A DNA stretch of 64,000 nucleotides, from assembly GCA_025558095.1 (NCBI GenBank), contig JAIVFI010000023.1, positions 434,001-498,000 of the forward strand. Direction: 5' to 3'. The number at the start of each line of letters is the position of its first letter. The first letter of the stretch is position 1. A model generated the notes under the pieces. That model did not search any database and had not been told where the DNA came from. It was given only the letters and a program-made list of their open reading frames with translations. A program made the translations under genes and the position numbers. This document shows, in pieces, positions 3,835 to 52,265 of this stretch. The DNA comes from Hyaloraphidium curvatum. Taxonomy: Eukaryota > Monoblepharomycota > Hyaloraphidiomycetes > Hyaloraphidiales > Hyaloraphidiaceae.

Positions 3835-5148
3835 TCACCCCTTGTCGTTGAGGAACCCCTCGAACCATCTATCCCACCCCTCCACCAGGCCCCTCGTCCA
3901 CAGTCCGTGCTCGTGGTTCACGGACTGCACCGCCATCTCGATGCCGAAGAGGTAGTAGTCAACGAGCTTGGCCCTCATGGCGGCCGCCATCTCCCCGTCC
4001 GCGAGCAGCCGGGCCCATTCCCGCTGCGGGACCTCCGGCCGCGCGAGGGTGCAGAGCTCGTGGCCGGCCACGTCGCGGCACGAGGCAACGCCCGATCGGA
4101 CGAGGAAGGAGAACAGCAGCTCCGCGCCGGGGTCGGAGGAGGTGGTCTTCCAGGCGAGCACGTCGGCGGGCATGGCGGTGCGGTAGTGCGCCTCGGCATG
4201 GGGCAGGATCGAGAGGATGTACTCGCGCACCCAGGGCTCGAACTTGCTGCGGCGCTCGGGCAGTTTTGCGAAATTGAGCCGGAAGGAGCTGTCGCCGGTA
4301 CTGTTGGGCGCGCAGGAGCCCTCGAAGGTCGCGCAGTAGCGCTTAAGAATGGCGCGGGAGTGCGTCCGGTCGATAGCACCGGGGAAGAAGGTGGTGAGCT
4401 CATCCCAGTCCGCCTCCTCGTCCGTAGAAAGCGGGTACGAAGTCTCGTCGGGCATGACTTCCGACGGCACGCCGACGGCCTCCAGTGCCTTCCTCGACGC
4501 CGCGATTCTTTGCTCCGTGGCGTGCCAATCGAATGGCGTGGTCGTGAAGAGAACGGGCGGGTGGGCCGCATGGACCGCCGAACGTTCGGGCAGCGCGCCC
4601 TGGAAGACGGCCGCCCGGATGGTCACGTTGGCCGAGATCATGGAGGTGACGAAGCCGCCCGCCGAGCTGGCGTAAACAAAAGTCGGTACACGCGACTGAA
4701 TGCCCTGCAGGGAAGGGTGCGCGGCGCCCAGCACTGTCCAGAGCTCCTCCAGCGCGCGCGGTGTCCGCGGGACCTGTTCGCCCTTTCCGCGCACGTAGTC
4801 CGGGCAGCAGACATCCCGATCCGCTTTGCTTTCCGTGGGGCCGTTCGCCGCGACGGCCAGGTAGCCGCGGCCCACGAAATGCGCGACGATCCGGCGAAGC
4901 TCGGGCAGGATCCAGAAGTCGAGGTGCGTCGCGCGGCACGACGGCATCAGAAGCAGCACGGCGCGCGGGACCTCCCGGGGCACCGAGAACGCGAAGCCGA
5001 GTCCGTTGGCGGACAGCGCCGAGACCGGGAACGCGGCGTCCGCGTCCGCGTGACCCGCGTCCGACAGCCGTCCGTGGACGAGATGGAACGCAGCCAACGC
5101 GCCCAGCGCGTAAACGACATAGTTGAGCACGCCCCGATGGGTCCCCAT
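3835..5148 (-). CDS. membrane-anchored alpha/beta-hydrolase-like protein
   Basis: A single exon of 437 codons. The N-terminus carries a hydrophobic segment (residues about 9-24, VLNYVVYALGALAAFHL), probably a signal anchor, so the catalytic part should lie in the lumen or outside. Residues 60-180 follow an alpha/beta-hydrolase pattern: hydrophobic strand AVLLLMPSCRATHLDFWILP, then RGYLAVAANG, then a nucleophile-elbow-like FVYASSAGGF (A-S-S-A-G in place of G-x-S-x-G). One or more late Asp/His residues could complete a triad (NHEHGLW near the end), but I cannot place it with certainty. It resembles uncharacterised eukaryotic secreted hydrolases. It is divergent from the reductase at 5442; a 22-bp inverted repeat covers its start codon. 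Confidence 0.6.
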   Translation of the reverse strand: MGTHRGVLNYVVYALGALAAFHLVHGRLSDAGHADADAAFPVSALSANGLGFAFSVPREVPRAVLLLMPSCRATHLDFWILPELRRIVAHFVGRGYLAVAANGPTESKADRDVCCPDYVRGKGEQVPRTPRALEELWTVLGAAHPSLQGIQSRVPTFVYASSAGGFVTSMISANVTIRAAVFQGALPERSAVHAAHPPVLFTTTPFDWHATEQRIAASRKALEAVGVPSEVMPDETSYPLSTDEEADWDELTTFFPGAIDRTHSRAILKRYCATFEGSCAPNSTGDSSFRLNFAKLPERRSKFEPWVREYILSILPHAEAHYRTAMPADVLAWKTTSSDPGAELLFSFLVRSGVASCRDVAGHELCTLARPEVPQREWARLLADGEMAAAMRAKLVDYYLFGIEMAVQSVNHEHGLWTRGLVEGWDRWFEGFLNDKG

Positions 5149-5441
5149 CGGGGAGTGGCCGTGCAGACGGCTTGCAGACGCGCCCCCAGATGGATTTGGG
5201 TGTCGGTCGGACTCGTCCTAGTCAAGGGTGCGTGTCCCGCATCAGCGCGACCTCCCATCCGGCTTCCAACTCTTCGAGGAAAAGAGACAAGATGGATCAG
5301 GTGATTGCCTCATGATGCTCCGGACTTCTTCGTGAAACGGGTACGTGCCGGTCCCGCGGGAGACACAGCCACCGGATTGTGACTCCAGCGTGACTCCAGC
5401 CTGACTACATCGTTTCGAATATCCTTGACATTCTATCACGC

Positions 5442-50623: not shown

Positions 50624-52265
50624 TCAGCAATTGATCTCCGGGTAGCAGCTTGGCGGGCGGTAGCCGACAAACAGTCCGATGTTGACGGCGACGTAGATCA
50701 CTGCAAGGTTTTGTTATTCTCCTTCCCATCAGCTTCTCGCGCAACCCACCGAGAGCAACAACAAAGGTGATCAGCGAAAGCGACACCAGAAAGTCGCGGT
50801 ACGAATCTCCCTTCGCAATCGAGCAAGGCCCGTATCCCCAGCACACCCTTGCAGGCTTCGAAGGAACCTCGTCCGGATCGGAGACGTCGCCATTGATTGC
50901 GACAGCGGTCGTCTTTCGCTGCGACGCCGTGCTGACATGGGGTGACACGGACGAAGCCTCCTCGGCGAAAGCAGCAGCCTTTCCTTCGATTTCGGAGGAC
51001 GACTTCTCCGCGGCGAGTTTTTCCTGCTTGGCCTCGTACTGTATGAGGAGCCATCGTTCCACGATGCTCTCGATGAAGATGAGGCCCACCAAGACCATGG
51101 TAGTGATATTAATGTAGTCCCCGACTGAAAGTGATGTAGGAACTGTTGTGATGGGATGGATGGTAAGCAGCAGGCCCCGTGCAAGAAGAGATGGATGGGA
51201 ACCCACAGCCTAGGAAGGCGTTCAAGGAATTGATGTTGAGCACAACGACGAAGATGCTATGAAGGTGGTTAGCTTCCGCCCGGCGATCAAGAGCTTGTTG
51301 CGTCTCACCTGGCGCCGAGGATGCCCATCCTCGCATCAAAGTGGTCCGTGACGGGGAGAACAAGGGCGCCCAAGCTCATGGCGAAGCTCAAATAAGAGGG
51401 CAACATTATCTGCACAAAATTCGTCGTATCGTCTCGTGCCAATTCGAAAACGATGGTAACGCGGTCAAACTGAGGCACCTGGGAAAGGTACGTTGTGCCA
51501 ATCAGAAAACGATGGTAACGCGGTCAAACTGACGCACCTGAGAAAGGTACGTTTCGCTGTACTCCACGACGCTTCGCAAGACGGTCGGCGGACCGCTGCG
51601 GAGCGCGAGGGCCGGGTCCATCGCAACGTCCGGGGCAACCACGCTGTTCTTGTCGTCGTAGACCAGCTTGAGTGCAGTTGTGTCCGGGAGCGCCTCGATG
51701 ATCAATCGCAGATAGGTCTCGTCGAAGGGATAGTATCTCAGATCCTCGTCGACCCTGATGTGGGGGACATTCGTCGTGGAGAGGTTGGAGTTGGGACGCT
51801 CCCTCTATAGATGCCGCGAGCCTACCTGGCTGTCGCCTGAACCTTCATCGTGCTCCAGTGAACAAAGGCGGGGCCGAGCTGGGCGGCGGGAGGAATCGTA
51901 CGGTACTCCTGGCCCGACACCGACAGGCCTCCCGGCTTCAAGTTGAGGATCTCGACAGTGTCCCAAAGGGTCACGTTTGCGTCGCAGACCATGGTGATCC
52001 ACCCTTCCCAGACCGCGCTGTCGTCCGCGAAGGAGAAGCCGAGCAGAGACATCGTGTACGTCTCGAAATGGCACTCCGTGGCAGTCTCGTTCGTCTGTCT
52101 GGCGGCAATGTCCCGCTGGACAGGTCGACCGGTCTTGCCGGCGTCGCGGCCCACGGCCCCTCGCCGGTAGGCGGCGGCCTCGACCCGCCCCGCCGCCAAA
52201 AAGACGAGGAGGACGAGCAGGGAGGCGCGGAGGAGGAAATCGGGCAGACTTCGGCGGTGTCCCAT
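50624..52265 (-). CDS. pentameric ligand-gated ion channel homologue (Cys-less, prokaryote-like)
   Basis: Six exons: 52265-51843, 51804-51538, 51478-51309, 51256-51207, 51124-50750 and 50700-50624, giving 453 residues; every junction keeps frame. A signal peptide (LLRASLLVLLVFLAAGRVEA) leads an extracellular beta-region with WEGWITMVCDANVTLW, the P-F-D signature DLRYYPFDETYLRLIIEA (residues 167-169) and VVEYSETYLSQVPQFDRVTI. Then four membrane helices: M1 VQIMLPSYLSFAMSLGALVL, pore-like M2 RMGILGASIFVVVLNINSL, M3 INITTMVLVGLIFIESIVE, a polar M3-M4 loop, and M4 LITFVVALVIYVAVNIGLFV. The exon holding the PFD segment has no cysteine, so there is no Cys-loop, as in bacterial GLIC/ELIC. Ligand and ion selectivity unknown. 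The second intron lies in a 59-bp tandem duplication. Confidence 0.75.
51436..51553 (-). repeat. 59-bp tandem duplication that contains an intron
   Basis: Two direct copies, 51436-51494 and 51495-51553, match at 55 of 59 positions by my count. In the channel gene (minus strand) the exon ends inside the second copy at 51538, the intron runs 51537-51479 (59 nt), and the next exon begins inside the first copy at 51478. Both copies hold the same CAG|GTGC junction. The intron therefore equals one repeat period, contains an in-frame TGA and is not a multiple of three, so it must be removed. This is the layout expected when a coding segment with an AG|GT is duplicated in tandem. Confidence 0.9.

Follow-up and report, generated by a model that had tools for sequence, protein, structure and literature searches.

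A predicted intron in a channel-like gene of Hyaloraphidium curvatum, probably created by a 59-bp tandem duplication

Introduction

The question of how new introns arise is not settled, and the sequences from which gained introns derive have been identified in only a few studies, according to the sections of PMC4974935 drawn on here. A gene of Hyaloraphidium curvatum, a fungus of the chytridiomyceta (Monoblepharomycota), poses this question at close range, as the source of a putative intron, its product and later changes adjoin in it. A short coding segment is present twice in tandem. Was an intron made in this way, or was a gene broken? We analysed the locus within a window of 64,000 nucleotides (the whole stretch of DNA under study, to which all unprefixed coordinates refer). 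The gene and all its features lie on the minus strand.

Results

A tandem repeat with an AGGT in each copy

The repeat consists of two head-to-tail copies of 59 bp, at 51436-51494 and 51495-51553, in which 55 of the 59 bases are equal (93%), with no indels. As the gene is on the minus strand, 51495-51553 is the first copy in the transcript and reads TCTCAG/GTGCGT...TTCTGATTGG, with the slash marking the proposed splice position. The second copy reads TCCCAG/GTGCCT...TTCGAATTGG. The four mismatches fall at 51541, 51533, 51504 and 51503 (numbered on the transcript-first copy), and both copies contain a single AGGT, in the identical place. The first-pass annotation had described a 59-bp direct repeat with an AG/GT in each copy, and was accurate on both counts. 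It had further proposed that splicing would take out exactly one period and restore the frame, which also holds: removal of 51537-51479 excises 59 nt, and the retained sequence runs into a TGA (51502-51504) at residue 231.

A restored frame is weak evidence in itself, since any tandem duplication holding AG/GT gives it. The main rival explanation, which we regard as unlikely, takes advantage of this: a frameshifting insertion of 59 bp would have disabled the gene or allele, and the AG/GT would be a coincidence that makes this duplication look spliceable, as it would any other that contains AGGT.

The repeat is not a chance resemblance. When the sequence at each predicted intron was matched to itself after a shift of one intron length, 51479-51537 scored 49, compared to 9 for the runner-up among 291 (median 4). 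No comparable self-match, and hence no other candidate for a tandem-duplication intron, was seen in the remaining 290 predicted introns of the 322-kb sample described below. The same sample held 16 tandem arrays, six of which, the array at 51436-51553 included, carried AGGT on a strand. Two of the other five (L033, L020, L021, L018 and L017) were inspected. The L020 array has a 131-nt lag; it lies outside predicted genes, in a region of Thr-rich repeats. The L033 array (4944-5182) is a 119-bp tandem duplication between predicted genes, with minus-strand copies that read GCAGGTGAG and GCATGTGAG.

A six-exon gene model

Homology to P0001 (an open frame of 394 aa from a contig of 24 kb), together with host splice signals, gave a channel-like gene that extends from start to stop codon over 52265-50624 and has six exons encoding 448 aa. 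Exon 1 (51826-52265) is followed by intron 1 (51755-51825, 71 nt, CAG/GTAGGC..CATCAG) and by exon 2 (51538-51754), which ends in ..ETYLSQ. The predicted new intron 2 (51479-51537, phase 0) is 59 nt long and thus equals one repeat period. Repeat copy 1 supplies 16 nt of exon and the first 43 nt of this intron, and copy 2 supplies its last 16 nt and 43 nt of exon 3. Exon 3 (51309-51478) starts with VPQFDRVTIVFELA.. and probably encodes loop C, strand beta10 and M1. Intron 3 (51257-51308, 52 nt) has a CTAAC branch site and shares its position with an intron of the C22 paralogue. Exon 4 (51207-51256), intron 4 (51143-51206, 64 nt by homology), exon 5 (50750-51142), intron 5 (50701-50749, 49 nt) and exon 6 with the stop codon (50624-50700) complete the model. 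In two respects the trained gene finder differed from this model, in which homology was given precedence: it merged the gene with the one upstream of it, and it set the end of intron 4 at 51125.

The spliced 448-aa product is collinear with P0001 and with the C3 and C22 paralogues into the last exon, towards a C-terminal VGYR motif (VGYRPPSCYPEINC in the window protein, VGYRPPACYPGLQC in P0001). Along these three alignments we found no stop or frame break elsewhere in the gene, which argues against an unspliced, disabling duplication. This argument has limited force, as an intact frame is only mildly surprising in a disabled gene of this age: with the divergence of the copies as a clock, 1.5 to 2.9 stops are expected in the coding sequence, and the probability of none is 0.23 to 0.05.

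The splice signals fit the host

To judge splice signals, we trained a simple gene finder on 322,505 bases, made up of the window and 26 stretches of approximately 10 kb from the same genome (5,001 of the bases being N). Training was seeded with introns that have a G at +5 and a pyrimidine at -3 (60 of 168), and six rounds of matrix refinement led to 291 introns, so that all reference introns are themselves predictions. In an initial run without splice matrices, the 59-nt intron was not called and the gene stopped at the TGA, as an unspliced duplication would have it. In that run, +5 G was already found in 70 of 122 introns of up to 80 nt, compared to 29.6% of all GT. The trained gene finder, by contrast with this initial run, called 51537-51479, exactly one repeat period.

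Judged against the 291 predicted introns, the signals of the 59-nt intron are typical of the host. Its length falls in the fullest bin (55-59 nt, 71/291). The donor CAG/GTGCGT (51532-51540) contains one of the five commonest predicted hexamers (GTGGGT, GTGAGT, GTGGGC, GTGAGC and GTGCGT), and +5 G occurs in 84% of predicted donors. Acceptors are mostly CAG, and the acceptor TTTCCCAG (51479-51486) lies at the 48th percentile of those predicted. Only 61 of the 291 introns in the 322-kb sample have lengths divisible by three. This may reflect either selection for introns that break the frame or a gene finder that takes frame-preserving introns for exon.

The branch sequence was kept out of training, and CTGAC and CTGAT were found de novo. 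Between bases -45 and -9, the most enriched 5-mer was CTGAC (in 66 of 237 introns of up to 100 nt; 15.3 expected), and 82 of the 112 CTRAY matches in these 237 introns lie 10-25 nt from the intron end. With the candidate left out, 89 of 236 introns had CTRAY 10-30 nt from their end, compared to 11 of 232 control 60-mers. The new intron has a putative branch site of this kind, CTGAT at 51501-51505 with the branch A at 51502, assigned by the host motif and its distance. A consensus branch site is not required, as CTRAY at 10-30 nt is missing from 147 of the 236 predicted introns, and is missing too from introns 1 and 4 of the window gene.

Of 14 donor/acceptor pairs that keep the frame open, the 59-nt intron scored best (9.96). 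The second (9.40) joins the same donor to a CAG 9 nt downstream, which would give a 68-nt intron and a product without VPQ. Since the two scores are 9.40 and 9.96, some transcripts may lose VPQ, and both forms may occur. That the 68-nt form is the main one seems to us quite unlikely. The homologues have residues at this place, with P in two of the five, and the distance to the branch A would grow to 33 nt, which is rarer.

The site is uninterrupted in five distant homologues

The 59-nt intron is absent from all five homologues that cover the site (P0001, P0002 and the C3, C22 and C16 paralogues). P0001 and P0002, which come from 24-kb and 34-kb contigs, were compared as proteins only. An alignment of orthologous genes had been suggested as a check, and an ancient intron at this site as a finding that would speak against a recent gain; the alignment revealed no such intron. 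All five homologues are distant (up to 54% identity), so their agreement points to absence of the intron in the family and gives no date. In the window protein the loop is one to four residues shorter than in the four aligned homologues.

The wider family is heterogeneous. The C3 paralogue (L003, G000:C3:558431-562189) is a single open frame of 520 aa from which all five window-gene introns are missing, as a result of either intron loss or retrocopying. The C11 paralogue (L012, G000:C11:569000-578900, at 3949-4556) matches window residues 57-141 and, 2 nt further on, residues 304-448. It therefore has no loop C, M1 or M2 and does not cover the repeat site, and it is either an internally deleted copy or a remnant. 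A family profile also found P0003, a deposited hypothetical protein of H. curvatum (320 aa; G000:C22:680531-681325), which has the same start as the C22 open frame and, by homology, reads through an apparent 50-nt intron in M2. With this stretch treated as an intron, the C22 paralogue reads ..GASIFVVVL.. and encodes a 441-aa protein. P0001 had no match when searched against viral contigs, and a protein search with the joined exons 2 and 3 returned 29 candidates, none at E <= 10.

The copies differ at predicted splice signals

Three of the four differences between the copies affect splice signals. The donor GTGCGT scored 5.76 (77th percentile of predicted introns), compared to 3.27 (25th percentile) for GTGCCT in the exonic copy. 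Among the 291 predicted donors, GTGCGT occurs 11 times (the new intron included) and GTGCCT three times, yet overall the sample contains the two hexamers in equal measure (147 vs 148). At 51504/51503, a double change turns the CGAAT of copy 2 into CTGAT, which matches the host branch motif and places the branch A 24 nt from the intron end (by the script's count), a common distance. The same double change creates the in-frame TGA. The repeat unit already held a weaker TTGAC, 46 nt from the intron end.

Which copy carries the original bases? At the codon of the donor change (+5 G at 51533, C in copy 2), copy 2 encodes P, as do P0001 and C22, while C3 has A, P0002 V and C16 Q; the R of copy 1 was seen in none of the five homologues, and the ancestral-type P is common to only two of them. 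The codon affected by the double change is E in copy 2, as it is in C22 and P0002 (P0001 Q, C3 S, C16 V); the TGA of copy 1 must be derived, since the original coding exon could not have contained a stop. Exonic copy 2 thus seems to be ancestral at the donor and branch sites, and intronic copy 1 derived, on a polarity read from proteins of up to 54% identity. The fourth difference, T/C at 51541, has no clear polarity and is left undecided. The double change could instead be an insertion plus a deletion.

With this polarity, the intronic copy has the derived base at all three polarized sites, and its changes improve the donor and create a branch site, neither of which is expected of an unspliced duplication. 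The placement of the changes weighs more heavily against that explanation than the neutral-decay clock, which provides mild evidence only. A total of 165 single changes to the intron in its ancestral-looking form were scored: exactly one brings the donor to the observed score or higher, and that is the change found in copy 1. Three random substitutions produced both the donor and the branch site in 0.018% of 400,000 trials, and the joint figure is about 5e-5 if the adjacent pair is counted as one event; both values are post hoc and depend on the polarity. Having been computed after the changes were known, these figures serve as a guide rather than a test.

The placement of the differences also bears on the assembly. 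Misassembly, or the joining of two haplotypes, can yield short tandem copies, but would hardly produce copies that differ at four of 59 positions, with three of these differences in splice signals and pointing in one direction. A 241-base query spanning the repeat had a single match in the 31.9-Mb, 55-contig genome, and we consider an artefact very unlikely. In a few fungi, introns have been multiplied by introner-like elements (PMC4457414, in the part cited). Here, however, we consider it extremely unlikely that the intron is an introner, that it stems from a transposon-like element, or that it is old and has flanks that are similar by chance, given the one genomic match to the 241-base query, the repeat in register over 59 bases (49 compared to 9 for the next of 291) and the intron-free site in 5/5 homologues. 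An introner is expected in multiple copies, and with one match to this query we rejected that reading.

Does the gene encode a pentameric ligand-gated channel?

The window protein resembles pentameric ligand-gated channels in having a YPFD loop, a strand and then a proline in a putative first membrane helix, a resemblance that is suggestive but unproven. The proline motif reads YP[FY]D in the window protein, P0001, C3 and C22, and YFPFD in P0002. It may correspond to the Pro-loop, a name used in PMC4795631.

A 301-aa partial window protein had no Pfam match, and neither Neur_chan_LBD nor Neur_chan_memb matched the four members of A1, P0002 or P0003. The four A1 members had only weak Pfam matches to other families (best E 0.0032), and the window gene was not among the genome matches of PF02931 and PF02932. 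The best match to a solved structure was the GABA-A delta subunit (E 0.58), while a four-member profile matched no solved structure at 0.01. With P0002 as the query no channel appeared up to E 5, and hhalign obtained no alignment to one channel frame from C6. The C16 paralogue, which the window protein matched at 1e-6, itself matched Neur_chan_LBD weakly (E 0.0068, below the cut-off).

The H. curvatum genome has nine matches to Neur_chan_LBD (PF02931) above the curated cut-off, and 14 control genomes have none. Eight of the nine form four neighbouring pairs, three of them divergent, with Neur_chan_memb matches alongside. The loci lie on C6 (45168-45806, 47131-47763, 861959-862591 and 863219-863872), C1 (280170-280802 and 281617-282228), C39 (459761-460393) and C37 (166327-168319). 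Such channels are reported to be absent from Fungi in the cited part of PMC4795631, and a literature search that combined Cys-loop with chytrid gave no match.

Discussion

Taken as a whole, the best explanation of this locus, and one we hold with considerable confidence, is a tandem-duplication intron as in the model of Rogers, later improved. The host-like splice signals, the homologue-like spliced protein, the absence of the intron from 5/5 homologues and the apparently derived improvements to donor and branch site all support this reading at the level of sequence. A 59-bp coding segment with CAG/GTGCCT would have been duplicated in tandem, with the donor supplied by the AG/GT of the upstream copy and the acceptor by the CAG of the downstream copy. 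The spliceosome would then remove exactly one period, which would leave the protein unchanged (YLSQ/VPQFDRV). We infer splicing of 51479-51537, and the 93% identity of the copies suggests that the duplication is recent.

After the duplication, a change of C to G at +5 of the intronic copy would have strengthened the donor, and the change of CGAAT to CTGAT would have provided a consensus branch site together with an in-frame stop that would expose unspliced mRNA to decay. We infer that copy 2 holds the ancestral base at each of the three sites, and the changes were presumably selected. The intronic copy could then be a record of an intron maturing under selection, with weak splicing first (GTGCCT and no consensus branch site), followed by fixation of the +5 G and of the branch site with its stop; we give this sequence of events an even chance. 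If it is true, the steps are open to testing one base at a time, both for their order and for their effects. A set of minigenes, one to three bases apart, would measure whether the raw duplication is spliced and how much the +5 G and the branch site contribute. A far more speculative idea, to which we attach very little weight, is that retained transcripts yield a secreted ligand-binding domain that ends just before M1. Acetylcholine-binding protein is the comparison for such a domain.

The tandem-duplication model is established, and what this locus adds is a readable record of changes after the duplication. The new observation is that the derived bases apparently sit in the copy that became the intron. 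The first-pass annotation had called clean natural cases rare, which needs qualifying: a 2012 review tabulates 188 intron gains by tandem duplication, many of which it calls imprecise (PMC3443670, in the part cited). Among the matches listed in our literature search, titles and abstract openings mentioned no Hyaloraphidium case of intron gain by duplication, and the Hyaloraphidium literature among them concerns mainly organelle genomes or introns.

Similar introns have been described in other lineages, in the portions of the papers cited here. As in H. curvatum, the Drosophila cases have duplicated proto-splice sites, and a premature stop is present in all 18 tandem-duplication intron sequences (PMC2891723). 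In fission yeasts, SPOG_01682 and SOCG_00815 are likewise fungal genes with introns across tandem AGGT copies, but these have multiple copies of 24 bp rather than a single 59-bp duplication (PMC4974935). The second intron of a potato RdRp gene also arose by tandem duplication, with copies that differ at ten bases and with RNA reads that confirm it; in contrast to H. curvatum, the duplicated segment there spanned the boundary of an intron already present, from which it took over an acceptor and a branch site (PMC4974935). The closest parallel is the model of Rogers (1989) and its vertebrate example ATP2A1 (Hellsten 2011), as described in PMC4974935. There too an exonic AGGT was tandemly duplicated, donor and acceptor come from different copies, and the protein is unchanged. 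The predicted H. curvatum intron departs from this pattern: between its intronic and exonic copies, the differences include the +5 base of the donor and a consensus branch site, which is present in the intronic copy only.
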